From Constantimarinum furrinae (GTDB lineage Bacteria > Bacteroidota > Bacteroidia > Flavobacteriales > Flavobacteriaceae): 64,000 nt of DNA. Every line of letters begins with the position of its first letter. Position 1 is the first letter of the stretch. The notes below the pieces were generated by a model, which was given only the letters and a program-made list of their open reading frames with translations, had not been told where the DNA came from and did not search any database. The stretch is from assembly GCF_014295415.1 (NCBI RefSeq), contig NZ_CP052909.1, positions 2,914,001 to 2,978,000 on the forward strand. The letters are read 5' to 3'. The translations under genes were made by a program, and so were the position numbers. Below, piece by piece: positions 1-58,587 of the stretch.

Positions 1-315
1 ACGAGTCATAAACTCACACACGACGCCCGTACACGACTGGAAACCATGGTGAAGACCAGCGACGGCTTCGAGATCGCTGAAGTTGACCTAAAGCTCAGAG
101 GTCCGGGTGATCTAATGGGAACACAGCAAAGCGGTGTTCTAAACCTTCGTATTGCAGATATCATTAAAGACGGGGAAATCCTTAAAATTGCCCGAAGTTA
201 TGCTATTCAGCTATTAAAGGAGGATCCTGCGCTTTCCAATTCCGAAAATTTTCCCATCAGGAACACCTTCGCACAGTTGGTCAAGTACAGAAATATCTGG
301 AATTATATCTCATAA
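1..315 (+). CDS. recG: ATP-dependent DNA helicase RecG, C-terminal end (partial)
   Basis: The reading frame is open from the first base and ends at 315; the 5' part lies outside the window. The 104 visible residues carry the RecG C-terminal pattern: an ARTRLETM segment, then FEIAEVDLKLRGPGDLMGT, which is the conserved end of the helicase core and wedge-coupling region, then a short helical tail. RecG is a cytoplasmic monomeric helicase that regresses stalled forks and unwinds branched DNA. The identification rests on this conserved block, which is also found in UvrD-unrelated Mfd; the LRGPGDLxGTxQSG form is the RecG form rather than the Mfd form. Confidence 0.9.
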   Translation, partial: TSHKLTHDARTRLETMVKTSDGFEIAEVDLKLRGPGDLMGTQQSGVLNLRIADIIKDGEILKIARSYAIQLLKEDPALSNSENFPIRNTFAQLVKYRNIWNYIS

Positions 316-35519: not shown

Positions 35520-38500
35520 TTAATCGAACCATTCTACGTCAATTCTTTCCCAATCTACTAATTCCAACCCAGCTCTACTTTGATCATAATGAGTCTCCAT
35601 ATGATCGCAAAACTTTTGCATACTGGCCGAATCACCGGTTTCACCGGTAATGAATTCCTTATAGGCTCCTTGCTCCCATACTGCACCAACTCGCCAATCT
35701 TGATTATTCAACATATAATACTCGACATCTACTAATCGATACCCTTGTCCTCTCATACTTCGGACCTTATCATAGAAAGTAGTTGGGTCTATATTGAGCT
35801 CCATTTTGGATGGTGGTCCTTTTACCCATACTCCCGACCAATCAAGCAAATTCCCATTTGGATAACATTCTATATCGACTATTTGCAGTCCATTGCTCAA
35901 AGCCCGATCATGTTCATTTCGGAGTTCTTGAGTTTGCATAACGTTCATCAATTGTGATTTTTTATTCTCTTTTGAGTAAACACCCGCCCATTTACGATTG
36001 CCATTGTCCAGATAAGATTCCACATCTCTTAAAATAAATCCTTCTTGTTTGAGGCCATTTGTCGTAGTTTCCAAAAGACCTCTTGAAAGATTATATACCA
36101 ATTTAGTCTTGGGAACCCCTTTTTTAAGTACGGCATCCCAGTATCTCTTTCCTTCATTCATATAAGTTTCTACATCAACACAGTTATATCCCGAATCCTG
36201 AAGACGCTCTATCTCCTTAAAGAATGCTGCAGTCTCATATCCTGTTCTAATGAGAACATCCCCGTCCCTTCGCCTCCAGACCCCATAAAATAAATCACTC
36301 CCATCTGTCATACCTCGTTCACATTTGTCATACGGTGTAGGGGTTAAGCCCGAATACAGTGTTGGACGAACATTTAATTCCTGAAAAATATACTTAGTTA
36401 ATTCGGGTAAATTGGCATATTCTGCTGGTGCCATAAGAGCAATTCCGGTGCTGTCGGTGGGAAAGAATTGCATATAGGACCTTGAATTTCCCCCGTGACC
36501 CCCGTGATATACTCTAAAATTATTGCCTGTGCCTCTAAAATACAAACCATAACTATATGACAGACTCCCGCCAACCGAGGCTGTGACACTATTATTCCAC
36601 AACTGATCTTTTTGCCCATCAAAAAATACTCCGGTACTCAATGCATAAGTATATTTTGCCAGATCACAAATATTAGACTGATAACCTCCACCGGGCAATG
36701 TCCATTCGGCTCGATTGCTTTGATGAGATGTTAACATCCCATCATAGGTTTTCTTATGTCCCCATCCCGGCGGTTCTGCTATACTAAAGGATTGCATTCC
36801 AATTTTATCAGCAATATTTTTTTGGACCCAATCGACATATCCGTTCGGTGCCGCCTTATCAATTGTTGCTCCGGCCAGAACGAAACCATATGAAGAATAG
36901 TGCCATTTCGAACCCGGATTAAAATCAATCACCGATTTATTGAAAACGCTGACGGCTTTCTTGGCATCAAAAACCCCTGGCGGACTAGAATATTCTTTTT
37001 CTTCTATGAATTGGACGTAAGTGTCTCTTCCCAGTTTAGCGTACTTGTTGTTCGCACCAGCACGAGTACCTTTACCATAGTGCTGGATCCCACTGGTATT
37101 ATTCAACAACTGGTCGATAGTGATAGATGTTAATCGAGCATCCACTCCTTCAACGTTTCCTGAAGTATCTGTATATGTTACATTCTTCCAGTTATCGACG
37201 TACCTATTGGCGTAATGAGATACCTTATACCCTGAAATTCCTTTTTCTTCAAGCTGTGCTGCGGCTACACCTGTAATAGATTTAGAAATTGAAGCCCATT
37301 CCATCGTTGTATTAAGGTTTATAGGAATTTCTTCATATAAATCTCTATAACCGTACGCTTTAAGATGAACCATTTTTCCATTTTTATACACAGCAACTGC
37401 AAGACCCGGAAGATCTTGTAGGATCATTTGTTCTTTAATCACCTTATCAACTCCTGCATCAAAAGCGGGATTGCAAAAACTTTGCGGAACTGTTCCCGAA
37501 CCGGTAGCTCCTCCTCCTACAGTACCACCACCAGAATTCCCTCCTCCACCAGCTGTTCCTCCACTACTTCCGCTACCCGACATTGGACCTCCTCCACCCA
37601 TATTAGGTTGTCCTCCTATGGAAGGTAATCCTGTTTGAATTAATCGTTGACCTCGGTCTGCAGGAACTGCTATGGCATTGGTTGGATTAAAACTTGGGTT
37701 ACCCACTGATGTTGGCACATAGATTTGGGTTTTGGTAGTACTATATCCACTTGGGTAGTAGCGTATAAAGAAACCATCGGGATGCTTGGTCCAGCGTCCG
37801 GGTCCAAACTCAGGCACAAGGGGCTCCTCACCCGGTAACATTGCAATATTTTCATAATCTTCATAGGTAGAAACTCCTCGGTAATAGCTCGCTCTGAGAT
37901 TATTTTCGGCTTCTACAATTGCTCGAACAGCATTGGATGAATACGCCAGTTTCTTCATTTCCTTGCGGGCAAGATTATCGAAACTACCTTTGCTTAATCT
38001 CGCAATTTGTTCGGCAGATAACAGTCGTATGGCTGTTAATTTTACCGGTCCGTTCATTTTATTAAAATCCGTTTTTGCAATTATCGCCCATAATAACAAT
38101 TGTACTTCTTTTTGTGTGAGTCCGGAATCCTGTTCATAGGCCTCTATAATTGTAGCAATAATGTCGGCTTTGGGTCCTTTTAAGGGAGCATAGAAGCGAC
38201 CACGACCCGTTGTTGGCATATATGTGCCGGCTTTAATACAAAAGCTTTGAAATCTTCCTTCATAAAATCCCGGCTGTAACAAAAATCCTTCACCCTCTAC
38301 ATAGGGCTGATTGTGTAAGTCTAAAAAGTCTGCATCATTTCCGAAGTCATCCTCAAAATACCTTGTTTTATCAACATCCTTAAAAGAAGTAGATACAGGG
38401 TCTGCACTTAGCTTTTCGACCGTAATCCCGGCAATAGTATTCTTCACTTTCTTTATTTTATCAAGAATTTGGGCTTCCGAAGCAACTGAAATAAAAATGA

Positions 38501-38531
38501 AGCCAATGAGAAATAAGATACATTTTTTCAT
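35520..38531 (-). CDS. secreted class C-like serine hydrolase with five 50-residue C-terminal repeats
   Basis: The 1003-residue protein has a signal peptide, an N-terminal domain (about 45-275) with FCIKAGTY (Cys98) and LTQKEVQLLLWAI, a Gly/Ser-rich linker (306-348), a beta-lactamase-fold serine hydrolase domain (355-720; SISK 414-417, YSS 545-547, HGGHGG 676-681), and a C-terminal tract of five repeats each 50 residues long (starting near 750, 800, 850, 900, 950; motif VW...GY..VDVE.Y..) like the bacterial tandem repeat domain 1 found in polyglycine hydrolases. It is likely exported and acts on peptides or amides. It follows the lipoprotein gene by 27 bp, in one operon. Confidence 0.88.
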   Translation of the reverse strand: MKKCILFLIGFIFISVASEAQILDKIKKVKNTIAGITVEKLSADPVSTSFKDVDKTRYFEDDFGNDADFLDLHNQPYVEGEGFLLQPGFYEGRFQSFCIKAGTYMPTTGRGRFYAPLKGPKADIIATIIEAYEQDSGLTQKEVQLLLWAIIAKTDFNKMNGPVKLTAIRLLSAEQIARLSKGSFDNLARKEMKKLAYSSNAVRAIVEAENNLRASYYRGVSTYEDYENIAMLPGEEPLVPEFGPGRWTKHPDGFFIRYYPSGYSTTKTQIYVPTSVGNPSFNPTNAIAVPADRGQRLIQTGLPSIGGQPNMGGGGPMSGSGSSGGTAGGGGNSGGGTVGGGATGSGTVPQSFCNPAFDAGVDKVIKEQMILQDLPGLAVAVYKNGKMVHLKAYGYRDLYEEIPINLNTTMEWASISKSITGVAAAQLEEKGISGYKVSHYANRYVDNWKNVTYTDTSGNVEGVDARLTSITIDQLLNNTSGIQHYGKGTRAGANNKYAKLGRDTYVQFIEEKEYSSPPGVFDAKKAVSVFNKSVIDFNPGSKWHYSSYGFVLAGATIDKAAPNGYVDWVQKNIADKIGMQSFSIAEPPGWGHKKTYDGMLTSHQSNRAEWTLPGGGYQSNICDLAKYTYALSTGVFFDGQKDQLWNNSVTASVGGSLSYSYGLYFRGTGNNFRVYHGGHGGNSRSYMQFFPTDSTGIALMAPAEYANLPELTKYIFQELNVRPTLYSGLTPTPYDKCERGMTDGSDLFYGVWRRRDGDVLIRTGYETAAFFKEIERLQDSGYNCVDVETYMNEGKRYWDAVLKKGVPKTKLVYNLSRGLLETTTNGLKQEGFILRDVESYLDNGNRKWAGVYSKENKKSQLMNVMQTQELRNEHDRALSNGLQIVDIECYPNGNLLDWSGVWVKGPPSKMELNIDPTTFYDKVRSMRGQGYRLVDVEYYMLNNQDWRVGAVWEQGAYKEFITGETGDSASMQKFCDHMETHYDQSRAGLELVDWERIDVEWFD

Positions 38532-38558
38532 AGATTGAAATTGTTTAGATTTTAAATT

Positions 38559-39182
38559 TTAATTCGCGATAGCCACTAGTTTTTCAAGTTCCATCGCTTC
38601 AAACATTTGCCATGCCTCCTCCCGCTCCATTTGCTCGGTCTCTACAGTTAAACAAAATCGATCACCGTAAAATGTGGTCAACTCATATTTATTATTACCG
38701 GTGAAATGAGTTTCTTTAGCTTTAATTCCATTTTCCGTAACCGATCGTTGATATCCCCAGTTGTGTTTAGTGTCAAATTCTGAAATAAGAGTATTGTAAA
38801 ATGCGCCAATAGAACCACTTGCTTTTGGCCCTGCTCCATCCATGATAGTGATCTTTACCACTTTCGAATTCTCTTTAGATCTGTATGTCGCACCAAAACT
38901 TGCTATTCCGGCTTGTATCATTAAGTTACTGGCCATATGTGTTCGATTAAAACCACCGGGTAAGGTTTCCGGTGACCAATGTTCCCATTGTGATTTGGTT
39001 AGCGGCTCCAGTTTAGATAAGGTTTCAACTGTGGAAGCTCTGTGATCTATGGTTTTTTCAGCATTCTTAATGGTTTTACTGGTTTGAGAAACCGAACTCG
39101 CAGCTTCTTTAACATCATTAAGACAAGCGCTAAAAAAAAGTAATATTGAAACAGCTATGCATAGGTTAGGTTGAAATTTCAT
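38559..39182 (-). CDS. lipoprotein of unknown function, operon partner of the serine hydrolase
   Basis: The 207-residue product has a lipoprotein signal (LLFFSACLN, Cys20), a short helical segment (VKEAASSVSQTSKTIKNAEKTID) and then a mixed domain: EPLTKSQWEHWSPETLPGGFNRTHM, GIASFGATYRSKENSKVVKITIMDGAGPKASG, FYGDRFCLTVETEQMEREEAWQMFEAME. No known family is recognised. It precedes the serine hydrolase by 27 bp, so the pair likely forms one transcript and may act on the same substrate or location. Confidence 0.7.
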   Translation of the reverse strand: MKFQPNLCIAVSILLFFSACLNDVKEAASSVSQTSKTIKNAEKTIDHRASTVETLSKLEPLTKSQWEHWSPETLPGGFNRTHMASNLMIQAGIASFGATYRSKENSKVVKITIMDGAGPKASGSIGAFYNTLISEFDTKHNWGYQRSVTENGIKAKETHFTGNNKYELTTFYGDRFCLTVETEQMEREEAWQMFEAMELEKLVAIAN

Positions 39183-52208: not shown

Positions 52209-55200
52209 TTACTCTTTCAAAATCTTGTAAGTTCCTATTTCTCCATTCACTGAAACTTTCATAATGTAAGTTCCTGTGGTGAGTGAGGAAACATTTAACT
52301 CACTGCGTGTAGCATTTACATCCATTCCGAGTACTTGCTGACCCAATATGTTGTAAATCGATACAGAATCGATCATCTCGATCGAAGACAGATTTAAAAT
52401 TTCATTAGCAGGGTTTGGATAATAACTGAATCCTTCTATAGTATTATCGGCTGTACCTAAATTAGTACCATCGATCACTATATCGGTAATTCCGCCGGTA
52501 TTCACTACAAATAAGTAGTATGCCTGACCCGCTTCAGTTGTAATATTAGCCGTGGTTCCCGGAGCACACTGGTTTCCTACCTGGAAGAAATATTCCAGAT
52601 CGGTTTCAACTGCGTTCTCATCCGGAGCCTTATAGAATACTATAAAACTCGCTCCTGCTGGAGAAACGATAGAGGCAGTAGCTGTTCCGTTTCCGGCTGC
52701 AACAAAGTTATACCATACACCGTTTGCACCGTCGATGGCACAACCCGTTGGGTTACCATTCTCGGTAGTAGCAGCAGGCATGGCAACGGCAGGATCGGTA
52801 TAAGGGAATCCTATCTCGTCAACATCAATAGAGTTCACGATCATATCGTTTGGTGGAGGTACCGGAGTACACGCCAGATTGATCGAGAAGTCTCCTTGTG
52901 CAGATCCGAATCCGTGAACTAAGATATAGTAGGTTGTACTACCGTCTCCTTGCCATGACACTTCAGACTGTAATCCACAAGAATCGTCGTTATCATCCAC
53001 ACAAGCTAGGGCACCACATGTACCTTCATACACTGTTATCTTACTGTCATAAGCCGTTCCACCATCACATAGGGAAACTGTATAATCGGTAATTAAACCA
53101 CTAGTATCTTCGAAGGTATACCATACACCCGGTGCTGTAATAGGAGTGGTACAAACAGGAGCAGCAGGATCAAAGAACGCAGTTCTTGTTGTCCCCAGCA
53201 GTGTTTCTCCACAAGCTATAGTTTGTGCATTTGCGCATTCATCATTAGGTGCAATAGGTTCGCAGGTAACGGCCATACTAAAAGCTCCGGAACTGGTTCC
53301 GAATCCTTCTACAGCGATTACATACGTGGTAGTACCGTCTGAAAGGAAGGTAACCTGAGATTGTAACCCACAAAAATCGTCGTTATCCACCACAAGGGTT
53401 CCTCCACAGGCATCGTAAACAGCAACTCGGGAATCATAAGTCGTTCCTCCGCCACAGAACGATAGGGTAACAAATTCCTGAGTACCCGAACCGGTAAATG
53501 AATACCACTCATCCGGAGCAGCCGTTACACCTCCCTGATCTGTATTATCTGCTGTAGTTCCTACGACCACATCACCACAGGCAACCGGTAAGGCTCCTGC
53601 GCATTGATCACTGGTTGGTACTTCAACAAAGCTGATGTCCATCATAAGATCCGGACCTGTACCACCACCTACACCACAGGCAGTTTGTCCCGATCCCCAT
53701 GTGGTACAAGGAGTTGCAAATCCGCCACCCGGATTTTGCCATTGATATGGGCCATCATTACCATCGGATGCAGTAGACCAGAACCATTGTCCCGCCAGAG
53801 CAAAATCCAAAGTAGCAACTACGCTCATCCAGTATGTTTCACCGCCAACCAAATTAACTGCTCCGGTAGGTGAAAGTATAAAACTTCCCGTATTTCCGGG
53901 ATCTAGGGCCGGGCCTGGGAAATCTTCAGTATAAATTATTGATCCGGGAATACCTCCGGCATTACTGTAAATATTTAATGTAACTAATGAATTAGGATCT
54001 GCAGGAAATCCTGCGGCCGAACTAATTCCTGTAATAGATACTTCGCAAATAGCTGCTGCCATAGAAGGAGCTAAAGGAATGACAAAATCATCTGCGGCTT
54101 CACTGTCAAAAGGATCATTGGTAGGGTTTGGAAAATTCTGAGATGGAGTTCCATTTAAAGTATTTATTGAGTTCGTATAGTTTGGAACTGTAGTTCCACA
54201 GGTAGCTCCGCCACCACCACCGCAAACCAAACCTGATTCGGTAGTTTGAGATCCCGGAGCTAACTGACCCGAAACAATAACATTTCCACCACAGGAAATT
54301 GTATAGTTAGGGGTATTATCTAGGAATGGACCATTCATAGCCGTGATAAAAAATTCCAAAGGTTCATTAGAAGTTGTGACCATTTGCGTATCACTATAAG
54401 GTGGTGCGCCATAAGGACCTCCACTCAACAACACTACACCTCCATTATCTCTAAGCTCCCATGCAACTTCATCACCAAAGTTAACAGTGTCTTCAACAGT
54501 TACTGTCCAGTTACCTGCACTGGTTGTGTTGGGAATAAAAGCTACAAAGTCGTTCGTAATTGCCCAGTTTTGATTATTACGATTTGGAACAGCAAGTCCG
54601 TCAGTTCCGTCAAAATTTTCAATTCCCTGAGTCGATGGACCACCATCATCGGGTTTAGTCGTAGTATGAATTTCGATCACATTTGTTCCTTCATACAGCT
54701 GAGCTTGTGTAGTTACATTATTTCCGGAAGGAAATTGATCTACATTAAAATATTCAACGATAAATATTCTGTTAGGAGCAGTTCCTTCAGTGGAGTAGCG
54801 AACAACATTCATCGCGGGCTGACCGCCGTTTCCGGGATCAAGATCATCCCATGCAACCGCTATTATATTATTAGGCAGTGTTGCATTAGGAATAGCGTCA
54901 TCAGATAGATCTGTTACGTCTGCAGGATCGAACGTTAAATATCCATTGGATGAAATGTAGATATCGGTATAATCGTTTCCAATAAAATTAAATGTAAAGC
55001 CCATGGATATAGGGCCGGTACCATCATCATCTCCCAAAGTAACTTCCGTTCCGGAGACAGAGATGTCGATTGGATTAAAAGTTCCTGCTTGGTCCAACGT
55101 ATAGTCTATGGCCATGGAACTTGAATTGGTTGTGTTCTGATTTACAGATGTACTTTGGTAATTTGAACTGAGTGATGCCGCTGTTACGGGGCCAACACTC

Positions 55201-55256
55201 TGAGCAAAACCGAAAGAACATACCATCAAAAAGAGTAGTAATGTAATTTTTTTCAT
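52209..55256 (-). CDS. large T9SS-secreted protein, paralogue A
   Basis: The 1015-residue protein has a signal peptide (MVCSFGFAQ), an N-terminal nidogen-like beta domain (about 40-250: FTFNFIGNDYTDIYISSNGYLTF, IIAVAWDDLDPGNGG), a beta domain shared with paralogue B (NWTVTVEDTVNFGDEVAWEL to GLVCGGGGG), a jelly-roll-like segment (DDFVIPLAPSMAAAICEVSITGISS), two PPC-like repeats (DECAGALPVACGDVVVGTT..., NDECANAQTIACGETLLGTT...), a third related domain, and a type A T9SS sorting tail (FSYYPNPANEILNLSS to YKILKE). Its last 760 bp are nearly identical to those of paralogue B. Adhesive or matrix roles are likely; function unknown. Confidence 0.9.
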   Translation of the reverse strand: MKKITLLLFLMVCSFGFAQSVGPVTAASLSSNYQSTSVNQNTTNSSSMAIDYTLDQAGTFNPIDISVSGTEVTLGDDDGTGPISMGFTFNFIGNDYTDIYISSNGYLTFDPADVTDLSDDAIPNATLPNNIIAVAWDDLDPGNGGQPAMNVVRYSTEGTAPNRIFIVEYFNVDQFPSGNNVTTQAQLYEGTNVIEIHTTTKPDDGGPSTQGIENFDGTDGLAVPNRNNQNWAITNDFVAFIPNTTSAGNWTVTVEDTVNFGDEVAWELRDNGGVVLLSGGPYGAPPYSDTQMVTTSNEPLEFFITAMNGPFLDNTPNYTISCGGNVIVSGQLAPGSQTTESGLVCGGGGGATCGTTVPNYTNSINTLNGTPSQNFPNPTNDPFDSEAADDFVIPLAPSMAAAICEVSITGISSAAGFPADPNSLVTLNIYSNAGGIPGSIIYTEDFPGPALDPGNTGSFILSPTGAVNLVGGETYWMSVVATLDFALAGQWFWSTASDGNDGPYQWQNPGGGFATPCTTWGSGQTACGVGGGTGPDLMMDISFVEVPTSDQCAGALPVACGDVVVGTTADNTDQGGVTAAPDEWYSFTGSGTQEFVTLSFCGGGTTYDSRVAVYDACGGTLVVDNDDFCGLQSQVTFLSDGTTTYVIAVEGFGTSSGAFSMAVTCEPIAPNDECANAQTIACGETLLGTTRTAFFDPAAPVCTTPITAPGVWYTFEDTSGLITDYTVSLCDGGTAYDSKITVYEGTCGALACVDDNDDSCGLQSEVSWQGDGSTTYYILVHGFGSAQGDFSINLACTPVPPPNDMIVNSIDVDEIGFPYTDPAVAMPAATTENGNPTGCAIDGANGVWYNFVAAGNGTATASIVSPAGASFIVFYKAPDENAVETDLEYFFQVGNQCAPGTTANITTEAGQAYYLFVVNTGGITDIVIDGTNLGTADNTIEGFSYYPNPANEILNLSSIEMIDSVSIYNILGQQVLGMDVNATRSELNVSSLTTGTYIMKVSVNGEIGTYKILKE
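52231..52994. repeat. 764-bp near-identical tract shared with 55466-56229
   Basis: Aligned base by base at a constant offset of 3235, only five mismatches are seen, all within the first 252 bp. Positions 52483-52994 are identical to 55718-56229 over 512 bp. The tract codes for the last PPC-like domain and the sorting tail of the two paralogues. Confidence 0.95.
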
Positions 55257-55443: not shown

Positions 55444-58400
55444 CTACTCCTTTATAATCTGATAGGTTCCTATTTCTCCATTCACTGAAACTTTCATAAT
55501 GTAAGTTCCTGTGGTGAGTGAGGAAACATTTAACTCACTGCGTGTAGCATTTACATCCATTCCGAGTACTTGCTGACCCAATATGTTGTAAATCGATACA
55601 GAATCGATCATCTCGATCGAAGACAGATTTAGAACCTCATTGGCAGGGTTTGGATAATAACTGAATCCTTCTATAGTATTATCGGCTGTACCTAAATTAG
55701 TACCATCGATCACTATGTCGGTAATTCCGCCGGTATTCACTACAAATAAGTAGTATGCCTGACCCGCTTCAGTTGTAATATTAGCCGTGGTTCCCGGAGC
55801 ACACTGGTTTCCTACCTGGAAGAAATATTCCAGATCGGTTTCAACTGCGTTCTCATCCGGAGCCTTATAGAATACTATAAAACTCGCTCCTGCTGGAGAA
55901 ACGATAGAGGCAGTAGCTGTTCCGTTTCCGGCTGCAACAAAGTTATACCATACACCGTTTGCACCGTCGATGGCACAACCCGTTGGGTTACCATTCTCGG
56001 TAGTAGCAGCAGGCATGGCAACGGCAGGATCGGTATAAGGGAATCCTATCTCGTCAACATCAATAGAGTTCACGATCATATCGTTTGGTGGAGGTACCGG
56101 AGTACACGCCAGATTGATCGAGAAGTCTCCTTGTGCAGATCCGAATCCGTGAACTAAGATATAGTAGGTTGTACTACCGTCTCCTTGCCATGACACTTCA
56201 GACTGTAATCCACAAGAATCGTCGTTATCTCCAACACAGGTAAGAGTTCCACAATCTCCGGAATACACAGTTATTTTACTGTCATAAGCCGTTCCACCAT
56301 CACATAGGGAAACTGTATAATCGGTAATTAAACCACTTGTATCTTCGAAGGTATACCATACACCCGGTGCTGTAATAGGAGTGGTACAAACAGGTGCTGT
56401 TGGATCGAACAATGCGTTTAATGTAGAACCAAGTAGCGTTTCACCACAAGCAATCGTTTGTGCGTTAATACACTCGTCGTTAGCTGCTATAGCCTGACAA
56501 GTCACCTCCATACTGAAAGGACCTACGCTAGCTGCGGCAAAACCTTCAACAGCGATCACATACGTTGATGTTCCGTCTGATAAGAAAGAAACCTGAGACT
56601 GAAGTCCACAAAAATCATCGTTGGTAACGATTACTGCGCCACCACAAGAATCATAAACGGTAACTCTCGAATCGTAAGTTGTTCCTCCATTACAGAATGA
56701 TAAGGTAACTATTTCCTGAGCTCCTGTTCCTGTAAATGAATACCACTCATCCGGTGCTGCGCTTTCACCACCTGTATCTGTATTATCTGCGGTAGTTCCA
56801 ACAACTATATCTCCACACATTACTGGAGTAGCTCCGGCACATTCATCGTTTGTTACTGGTGGTATCGGGGTTCCGGCAATAGCAACAATACCAAGTTCCG
56901 CACAGTCTGAATTAACAGTTCCTAATCCCGTAAAAGCACCTGTAGTAGTATCTACCGTACCGAATTGATTGATTCCTCCTCCAACATAGGCTCCCATATA
57001 AAGTACATTAGAAACCGGATCGAAATCGGCATCCTGTGCAAAGTTAATTGCAATGCCTAAGGGACCAATTTCGGTAAAAGTGGCATTGGCAAGATCCACA
57101 CTCCATAGACTGTCGTTGGCCAGTTCGGCCATATATGCATCTCCGTTATTGTCGATAGCCAGCCATATTCCGAGTCCACCCGGAATATTGGATGTTCCCA
57201 CTTCAGTTAAAGTTCCTGTAGCGAGATCAACGGTATAAATGGTATGGGCATCACCCGAACCGGTCAAGGCATACATGGTACTATTCGCGTAATTCCATGC
57301 CAATCCTCTCGTTCCATGACCTGCTAATATATTGGTTAGCGGTCCAACCGTAGTTTCGGCTCCATTAGACGGGTCAATAGTAATTAATGTAAGTGCGCCA
57401 TTATCTAGAGCGTATAAAGTTCCTGTACCATCATAATCACCAGCAAAAATAGCTGTAGTAGAAGTTCCTACGGTGTTAATATTATATGGTCCTCCTAAAG
57501 AAAAAGTTCCCATATCGTCTGAACAAAATCCTGCATCAAAAGCAAAGACTTCATCCATTCCACCGCCTCCGCCACCGCAGACTAAGCCTGATTCGGTAGT
57601 TTGGGAACCGGGTGCTAATTGTCCCGAAACAACTACGTTTCCTCCACAGGAAATTGTATAGTTAGGCGTATTATCTAAGAATGTACCATTCATAGCCGTT
57701 ATAAAAAATTCTAACGGTTCATTAGAAGTGGTCACCATTTGCGTATCACTATAAGGTGGTGCTCCGTAAGGACCTCCACTTAACAAAACAACACCTCCGT
57801 TATCTCTAAGCTCCCAGGCAACTTCGTCACCGAAATTAACAGTATCTTCAACAGTTACTGTCCAATTGTTACTTCCACCACCGCTTACAGGTTCCGGACC
57901 ATTAAAATTACCTATCTGACCACCTTCCACACACGGACTTGCAGGTGCAGGCCAGGAATCGATCCAGATAAAGTACTCGGTGTTGGCTACCACATTAAAG
58001 TTTAGTGTTCTTGTGGTGGTAGTTGATCTAGTTCCTGCGACACAAGTTCCTCCTCCTTCAGGACAACCATCATACACAAAGATTGCTGTCCATGAAGTAT
58101 TATCTACTGTTATGGTTACCGGACCGTCGGTAGCTGGTGTATAAGAATAAAGTGCTTCAAGACCATTTCCATACTGGGTTGGGATTGCCGTCCCCGTATT
58201 GGCATCTGTAGGACACATTGTAGTAGTGGTAGAATTTAATTGATCTACAGTGTGGCACACAAGTGGCTGATTTGTAAATGTTCCCGAGGTTATTGGGATC
58301 GCAAAATCACAGGGAGCCATTGAACTTCTTTGCTGCGTAAAATACGCACTCAATACTGCTCTTTCAGCATCGGTAAATAAATCTAAAGACCCATCTCTGG

Positions 58401-58587
58401 TATCTTGAGAATCCACTGAATTTAAACGTTCAAGTAATTCATCTATTTGTGATGAATTTACAGTTTGGTTCGATTCAGTAGAATTTGCTAAAATCCGTGC
58501 TTGCTCTTCCGGATAATAATCTTGTGCTAAAAGACTAGATGAAAATCCAATCAAAAAGCACCATAATACTAGCGTAATTTTTTTCAT
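55444..58587 (-). CDS. large T9SS-secreted protein, paralogue B
   Basis: The 1047-residue protein has a signal peptide (SSSLLAQ), an N-terminal propeptide-like helical region (about 25-90: IDELLERLNSVDSQDTRDGSLDLFTDAERAVLSAYFTQQRS), a PPC-like domain (about 90-215), the NWTVTVEDTVNFGDEVAWEL domain shared with paralogue A, a six-strand-like repeat region resembling a beta-propeller (AFDAGFCSDDMGTFSLGGPYNINTVG, GTRGLAWNYANSTMYALTG), two PPC-like domains, and the type A sorting tail (FSYYPNPANEVLNLSS to YQIIKE). It stands 187 bp from paralogue A. Location and likely role are as for A. Confidence 0.9.
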   Translation of the reverse strand: MKKITLVLWCFLIGFSSSLLAQDYYPEEQARILANSTESNQTVNSSQIDELLERLNSVDSQDTRDGSLDLFTDAERAVLSAYFTQQRSSMAPCDFAIPITSGTFTNQPLVCHTVDQLNSTTTTMCPTDANTGTAIPTQYGNGLEALYSYTPATDGPVTITVDNTSWTAIFVYDGCPEGGGTCVAGTRSTTTTRTLNFNVVANTEYFIWIDSWPAPASPCVEGGQIGNFNGPEPVSGGGSNNWTVTVEDTVNFGDEVAWELRDNGGVVLLSGGPYGAPPYSDTQMVTTSNEPLEFFITAMNGTFLDNTPNYTISCGGNVVVSGQLAPGSQTTESGLVCGGGGGGMDEVFAFDAGFCSDDMGTFSLGGPYNINTVGTSTTAIFAGDYDGTGTLYALDNGALTLITIDPSNGAETTVGPLTNILAGHGTRGLAWNYANSTMYALTGSGDAHTIYTVDLATGTLTEVGTSNIPGGLGIWLAIDNNGDAYMAELANDSLWSVDLANATFTEIGPLGIAINFAQDADFDPVSNVLYMGAYVGGGINQFGTVDTTTGAFTGLGTVNSDCAELGIVAIAGTPIPPVTNDECAGATPVMCGDIVVGTTADNTDTGGESAAPDEWYSFTGTGAQEIVTLSFCNGGTTYDSRVTVYDSCGGAVIVTNDDFCGLQSQVSFLSDGTSTYVIAVEGFAAASVGPFSMEVTCQAIAANDECINAQTIACGETLLGSTLNALFDPTAPVCTTPITAPGVWYTFEDTSGLITDYTVSLCDGGTAYDSKITVYSGDCGTLTCVGDNDDSCGLQSEVSWQGDGSTTYYILVHGFGSAQGDFSINLACTPVPPPNDMIVNSIDVDEIGFPYTDPAVAMPAATTENGNPTGCAIDGANGVWYNFVAAGNGTATASIVSPAGASFIVFYKAPDENAVETDLEYFFQVGNQCAPGTTANITTEAGQAYYLFVVNTGGITDIVIDGTNLGTADNTIEGFSYYPNPANEVLNLSSIEMIDSVSIYNILGQQVLGMDVNATRSELNVSSLTTGTYIMKVSVNGEIGTYQIIKE
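55466..56229. repeat. 764-bp near-identical tract shared with 52231-52994
   Basis: This is the second copy of the gene-converted tract, at an offset of 3235. A further patch of about 112 bp (56283-56394 against 53048-53159) has one mismatch, and beyond it identity falls to about the level of older divergence. Confidence 0.95.

Follow-up and report, generated by a model that had tools for sequence, protein, structure and literature searches.

Within a 64,000-nucleotide stretch of the Constantimarinum furrinae genome (contig NZ_CP052909.1, positions 2,914,001 to 2,978,000; here called the window), two minus-strand genes spaced by 27 bp encode a lipoprotein of 207 residues (38559-39182, the upstream gene) and an exported serine hydrolase of 1003 residues (35520-38531). 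We propose, with a probability of roughly 70%, that the hydrolase is fused at its N-terminus to an exported, covalently tethering thioester domain (TED). The two genes, their spacing, the catalytic motifs, the Gly/Ser linker and the five 50-residue repeats had all been described in an earlier note on this DNA and were found again here. The roughly 280 N-terminal residues before the linker had been overlooked, and proved more informative than any other part. The genome (2.99 Mb, a single contig) holds the 1003-residue protein in single copy. The features are listed below in window coordinates.

35520..38531, minus strand: exported 1003-residue protein with signal peptide, TED-like domain, Gly/Ser linker, S12/class C beta-lactamase-fold hydrolase and five BTRD1 repeats
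38469..38531, minus strand: Sec signal peptide, residues ~1-21, cleavage at ...SEAQ/ILD (judged by eye from the sequence)
37626..38468, minus strand: thioester-domain-like N-domain, residues ~22-302
38238..38240, minus strand: Cys98, predicted thioester Cys, FCIK motif
38088..38102, minus strand: Gln144-LLL-Trp148 helix motif (compare TQxxPhiW of TEDs)
37647..37649, minus strand: Gln295, predicted thioester Gln, QRLI motif
37476..37625, minus strand: Gly/Ser-rich linker, residues 303-352
36417..37451, minus strand: PF00144 serine hydrolase, residues 361-705, with Ser414, Lys417, Tyr545 and His676
35523..36290, minus strand: five 50-residue BTRD1 repeats, residues ~748-1003
38559..39182, minus strand: 207-residue lipoprotein, PsbP-like fold

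The N-terminal domain resembles Gram-positive thioester domains

A Pfam scan of the 1003-residue protein assigned no family to its first 350 residues. The AlphaFold model of the N-domain (pLDDT 84.5, pTM 0.86) was compared with 999 chains by VIA-align; 20 of these aligned with Z of at least 2, and the top four were all TEDs (4c0z, 4.7; 5a0l, 4.7; 6fwv, 4.6; 5a0d, 4.2), followed by the next chain at 3.4. The absence of other folds from these lists was not taken as exclusion. According to the available parts of two papers (PMC6194298, PMC4450167), from which the published residue numbers are also taken, TEDs carry a [YFL]C-Phi-zeta motif, a TQxxPhiW motif and a weak PhiQzetaPhiPhi motif that holds the bond-forming Gln, and the Cys and the Gln are the sole universally conserved residues. 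The first motif is present in the window protein as FCIK, and its Cys is invariant in 26/26 rows of the N-domain alignment and in 36/36 N-domain proteins read in frame. The central helix motif is found as QxxxW in all 36 proteins, with the Thr not kept, and both Gln144 and Trp148 are invariant in the 26 rows. Beyond a distance of 120 residues from the Cys, each of the 36 proteins also has a single QR[LI], and its Gln in the window protein is in register with SfbI Q261, CpTIE Q267 and BaTIE Q266. The QR region had been listed as a candidate before the structural match was obtained.

The residue comparison covers SfbI, CpTIE and BaTIE. The alignments span model residues 70..284 on SfbI 100..269 and 71..282 on CpTIE 130..273, and place model C79/Q276 (C98/Q295 of the protein) on SfbI C109/Q261 and CpTIE C138/Q267, provided that the last 6-9 residues at each alignment end are ungapped. 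For BaTIE (model 72..283 on 33..242) the two residues fall on positions 40 and 235. These are 195 residues apart, as are C71 and Q266, and the resulting shift of 31 in the numbering agrees with the domain limits given in PMC8092201.

The closest PDB folds by VIA-align are thus TEDs of Gram-positive TIE adhesins (Cpa, SfbI, CpTIE, BaTIE, TIEpLS20), which share with the N-domain the N-terminal position after a signal peptide as well as the Cys motif, the QxxxW helix and the C-terminal Gln motif. The N-domain proteins differ from these adhesins in that no isopeptide stalk or sortase anchor is recognised in them, in that they occur mainly in Bacteroidota, either stand-alone or fused to a hydrolase or a beta-helix, and in that the sequence likeness is below significance. 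An internal thioester, such as the N-domain would have, also exists in Gram-negative bacteria in the bacterial alpha-2-macroglobulins, but these are large protease traps with a different fold and a contiguous CxEQ motif.

At the sequence level, the N-domains were compared with twelve TEDs encoded on Bacillus, Virgibacillus, Terribacillus and Carnobacterium plasmids, the profile comparison covering the pLS20-like plasmid group. A C-x7-P-x2-G pattern, noticed after the comparison, is invariant in 26/26 N-domains and 12/12 plasmid TEDs, and the conserved Gln of the latter sits in Q-[RKVTD]-[LI]. The best hhalign alignment was in Cys-on-Cys register with both 7 and 12 TEDs. With 12 TEDs, log-odds scoring ranks the sequence window of the predicted Cys register 125 of 56,871 and that of the Gln register 107 of 60,280, whereas BLOSUM scoring gives ranks of 5 and 125; these register windows lie in the top 0.22% of all windows or better, and with 7 TEDs in the top 0.8% or better.

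Several observations weigh against the proposed covalent tethering. The VIA-align scores are below 5, a range in which the tool warns of common arrangements, and Foldseek found no significant match to the N-domain model (best E 0.78). In contrast to the published motif, the Gln is seldom preceded by a hydrophobic residue. The hhalign profile-profile comparison did not reach significance (P 0.15 with 7 TEDs and 0.053 with 12). When the anchor column is omitted, log-odds scoring with 12 TEDs gives fractions of 0.022 for Cys and 0.016 for Gln, and BLOSUM scoring 0.0002 and 0.020; with 7 TEDs the corresponding values are 0.046 and 0.003, and 0.0002 and 0.006. Hidden Markov model searches of PDB sequences with the N-domain missed the TEDs, and the Pfam TED model matched 0/26 N-domains, which gave only stray Pfam and NCBIfam matches. 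Finally, both the target and the place of action in the mechanism given below are guesses. Since the register windows rank high while the overall profile comparison is not significant, homology of the N-domain to TEDs is likely on sequence grounds but not proved by them.

The low similarity scores, together with a thioester predicted here from sequence and model, leave room for an N-domain that has the TED fold without the chemistry, its Cys and Gln being structural and the domain serving as a non-covalent binding module for the hydrolase. We regard this as unlikely, as precisely the two residues named in the TED papers as universally conserved are kept in 36/36 proteins, even across a long insert. 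That insert accounts for the position of QR[LI] in six far relatives (loci L138-L140 and L148-L150), where the motif is still kept 377-488 residues after the Cys. The long inserts before QR[LI] in these proteins (L138 9407-12307, L139 9803-12433, L140 3752-5197 and L148-L150) are reminiscent of the insert of class II TEDs; the proteins of L138-L140 have no Pfam match. A cysteine-protease reading of the N-domain was rejected because no His is invariant in the 26 aligned rows. A polymorphic toxin head with variable C-terminal toxins was rejected as well, as the C-terminus of the relative in genome G306 is again PF00144, following a repeat region that was recognised by eye and is without a BTRD1 match.

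Proposed mechanism and distribution of the N-domain

After export and signal-peptide cleavage, the N-domain would fold like a Gram-positive TED and form a spontaneous internal thioester between Cys98 and Gln295. By analogy with SfbI, a nucleophile of the target, most likely a lysine or other amine, would attack Gln295, and the protein would thereby be covalently tied to the target. The flexible and variable linker would hold the S12-type domain near its substrate for local hydrolysis, its Ser414/Lys417/Tyr545/His676 site looking active as judged from the sequence, while the five-unit BTRD barrel may position the substrate or partners. The PsbP-like lipoprotein could be an accessory, optional and anchored in the membrane, that acts either as a binding partner or as an inhibitor. 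Type IX sorting tails are found on two proteins encoded in the window (52209-55256 and 55444-58587); the hydrolase has no such tail, and none was seen in five scanned relatives that bear a TED, two of them from L117 and one each from L099, L100 and L101. The missing tail on the hydrolase suggests that action probably takes place in the periplasm.

The N-domain is present in 5/299 genomes of the window's family (4 fused, 1 stand-alone) and in 10/345 genomes drawn from the phylum, the window's own genome being included in both counts; the species collection has it at 27 loci. Searches of plasmids and of phages with tblastn gave no match in either, and a PF08341 search of the window's own genome gave none, not even for the controls. 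The hosts include Flavobacteriaceae, Saprospiraceae, Pedobacter, Chryseobacterium and Kaistella, as well as metagenome-assembled genomes labelled Ignavibacteriae, Aminicenantes/Saccharicenans and Sphingomonadales, labels that may be wrong. Fusion to a PF00144-type hydrolase with repeats is seen in 12 distinct loci (the window, L099 and L114-L123, L114 being cut by a contig end), fusion to a beta-helix in another gene of L117, and stand-alone proteins consisting of signal peptide and domain (~311-335 residues) in Pedobacter, Kaistella and Chryseobacterium.

TEDs have been reported from Gram-positives only, while the N-domain family is found mainly in Bacteroidota. No thioester-domain family of Bacteroidota or flavobacteria was found among the papers listed in searches of open-access literature, and a survey of isopeptide domains that includes Gram-negative ones reports no Gram-negative thioester domains in its available part (PMC12617251). 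On balance we lean towards a wider interpretation, in which Bacteroidota and a few other genomes outside the Gram-positive phyla carry an unrecognised TED family whose members, either on their own or joined to a serine hydrolase with the barrel of polyglycine hydrolases or to a beta-helix, provide exported proteins with an exchangeable covalent warhead. If this is true, thioester capture extends beyond Gram-positive adhesins and gains an enzyme, and a Gram-negative family that is hydrolase-fused and has no recognised wall anchor would put the chemistry to a new use, the covalent placing of an enzyme.

L118 and L101 denote one locus, as do L121 and L100, and each of the two entered the counts given above once. 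The 26-row alignment omits L142-L150 and L132, a near-copy of L133 that is included among the 36 proteins. The latter count omits L137, whose alignment row shows all three motifs, and both leave out L131 and L136, which belong to the 27 loci of the species collection and whose N-domain genes (L131 9884-10816, L136 9902-10894) have an in-frame stop, either by decay or by sequencing error. As the proteins of L144 and L132 look identical in the compared part, the number of distinct proteins among the 36 is probably 35.

Among the individual loci, the beta-helix fusion of L117 (3390-5903) is made up of a TED-like domain, a Pro/Asp/Glu-rich linker and right-handed beta-helix repeats, and adjoins a further TED gene that encodes a hydrolase and BTRD repeats. 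L125-L130, L132-L134 and L144 encode stand-alone TED-like secreted proteins in which no anchor is recognised. The stand-alone gene of L133 follows genes for an S13 D-Ala-D-Ala carboxypeptidase and a histidine kinase, and genes that are similar, by appearance alone, are found at that place in L128-L130 and L132.

The lipoprotein as a proposed optional partner

No Pfam family matches the window lipoprotein, in which FSAC was recognised by eye as lipobox-like. Its model (pLDDT 80.6) has a PsbP-like fold, which we take to belong to the Mog1/PsbP superfamily, and aligns with TiME (Z 9.6), RseB (9.4), the PknH ectodomain (9.4), BT_1490 (9.0), MucB (9.0), Tsi3 (8.5), PsbP (up to 7.5) and TplEi (7.4); the best Foldseek match has E 3.8e-3. 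The fold is thus shared with PsbP-like periplasmic proteins (TiME, the RseB domain, the PknH ectodomain and Tsi3; Z 8.4-9.6), from which the window lipoprotein differs in lacking a Pfam family.

The earlier note had suggested that the lipoprotein is the anchor, inhibitor or immunity partner of the hydrolase, and had asked whether the two always occur together. They do not, and an obligate pair is rejected. With blastp (E 1e-4) and open reading frames of at least 80 residues, five on either side, the lipoprotein was found to adjoin 6 of the 12 fused genes (the window, L099, L118, L121, L122 and L123), although in L121 the first of four copies lies one gene away. No match was found beside the fused genes of L116, L117, L119 and L120, nor upstream of those of L114 and L115, where the downstream sequence is short or cut off; six 18-kb stretches around other BTRD genes (L103 and L109-L113) were likewise without a match at blastp E 1e-4. 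Relatives of the lipoprotein occur in 38/299 genomes of the family, 34 of which show no N-domain, while the remaining four carry a fused hydrolase and in all four the lipoprotein adjoins it. The three nearest relatives (L114-L116) are syntenic and have PCMT next to the hydrolase with no lipoprotein between them, so the lipoprotein was either gained in the window or lost in the others. The absence from these relatives, together with the 34 genomes, shows that the pair is not obligate; what stands of the suggested partnership is an optional one, found at half of the fused genes.

The lipoprotein also has other neighbours. It is followed by a DUF4412 gene in L099 and, to judge from similarity to the L099 gene, also in L118 and L122. 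Among five opened loci that have the lipoprotein but no hydrolase (L104-L108), a DUF4412 gene exceeds the Pfam cut-off in L107 and stays below it in L106, L105 has a gene resembling DUF4412 by appearance, and none was recognised in L104 and L108. This association, which includes loci without the hydrolase, suggests that the role of the lipoprotein is broader than one with the hydrolase alone.

Could the pair be an antagonistic enzyme with its immunity protein? The matches of the lipoprotein model to Tsi3 and TplEi would fit such a pair, as would the presence of the lipoprotein beside half of the fused genes and the four paralogs downstream of the fused gene in L100. Yet TiME, RseB and PknH, which are not immunity proteins, score as high or higher, the other six fused genes show no lipoprotein beside them (with the downstream side cut off in L114 and L115), most genomes with the lipoprotein show no N-domain, and no signal for a delivery system was recognised. 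We therefore consider a toxin-immunity pair improbable, and prefer the covalent tethering of a hydrolase with the lipoprotein as an accessory.

Two side observations concern this lipoprotein family. The four paralogs of L100 (G306:C11, 4891-8931; the same locus as L121) have genes of 124 and 251 residues between them. The window's genome encodes a second lipoprotein of the same family (G000:C1:1235306-1235884; L037, L104), which is 28% identical and has no hydrolase adjoining it.

The hydrolase, its linker and its repeats

The catalytic domain matches PF00144 at residues 361-705 (E 9.9e-39; 133.8 bits against a cut-off of 27) and has the motifs S414-I-S-K417, Y545-S-S and H676-G-G, so that the score and the SxxK, Tyr and HxG elements together place it in the S12/PF00144 family, in agreement with the beta-lactamase-fold serine hydrolase core seen earlier. 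The active-site Ser, Lys, Tyr and His and the third-position Gly of HGG are invariant in 12/12 aligned rows (11 fused proteins and L103). In a profile search of PDB sequences the best match was LACTB (E 3.6e-31), followed by other S12-type enzymes. The hydrolase has SxSK, Y and HxG in common with these enzymes (LACTB, Flp, alkaline D-peptidase), and differs from them by its flanking TED-like and BTRD domains.

In the C-terminal part, Pfam finds BTRD1 (PF17660; E 1.2e-12) with two stretches above threshold. The first-strand Val recurs at residues 751, 801, 851, 901 and 951, a spacing of exactly 50, and the BLOSUM autocorrelation at lag 50 is 0.38, which 0/2000 shuffles reach (mean best -0.61, sd 0.09). 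The end of the fifth copy is extended, the spacing of the VDxE element there being 58, not 50. When a profile of ten repeat regions was searched against PDB sequences, the fungal polyglycine hydrolase 7tpu (Fvan-cmp) was the only match below E 0.05 (E 1.7e-5; next 0.075), which substantiates the likeness to the repeat domain of polyglycine hydrolases that had been noted before. According to the accessible part of PMC9912923, the N-domain of the fungal enzyme consists of five EHEE repeats of 44 residues with loops of 5-6 residues that form a barrel without an assigned function, and its third active-site motif is lost (Phe/Arg/Asp). The open-access papers found on PF17660 and BTRD1 do not deal with function, and the present protein gives the barrel a new setting beside that of the fungal enzyme.

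Both proteins combine five repeats of about 50 residues with a beta-lactamase-fold serine hydrolase. The similarity of the repeats and a window linker with 44% Gly (longest Gly run 4) would also suit a bacterial polyglycine hydrolase that cuts Gly-rich linkers and has its own linker as substrate, leading to self-release. The details argue against this function, which had been suggested by the earlier note and which we reject as very improbable. The repeats are N-terminal in the fungal enzyme and C-terminal in the window protein, HGG is kept at 676 whereas the third motif of the fungal enzyme is lost, and the window protein has an additional TED-like domain; its catalytic domain is nearer to LACTB and other S12-type enzymes, with 7tpu absent from the best 60 of 139 PDB matches to the catalytic profile. 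The 12 fused proteins have linkers of 20-110 residues with a Gly content of 3-53%, and in 6 of the 12, including the three closest relatives of the window protein, the linkers are Gly-poor (at most 25% Gly). This variation makes the linker look like a spacer rather than a conserved substrate, the two roles earlier considered for it. An ordinary beta-lactamase acting as a resistance enzyme, to which PF00144 and weak class C beta-lactamase matches might point, scarcely deserves consideration and is rejected on score (42.5 bits against a curated class C cut-off of 415), with HGG in place of KTG.

Both domain orders are seen in the family: the repeats precede the hydrolase in L110 and L112 and follow it in L103 and the window; in L100/L121 a repeat region recognised by eye, without a BTRD1 match, lies between the N-domain and the hydrolase. 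The linker of L101 6984-10256 (L118) consists of many near-perfect GGGDQ repeats, and its length may vary.

Genomic neighbourhood and minor observations

A scan for promoters and terminators gave no excess over shuffled sequences. Six fused loci (L099 and L118-L122) adjoin a divergently oriented response regulator gene and its partner gene, presumably LytTR and LytS, and the window and L114-L116 adjoin PCMT, which is named by Pfam in the window only. Mature N-termini of the form AQ-[IFL]-[LF]-[KD]-K-[IL]-K or similar recur, as judged by eye, in otherwise unrelated exported proteins, namely the window hydrolase, the DUF4412-type proteins of L099, L101 and L105-L107, and L103 9772-11076.

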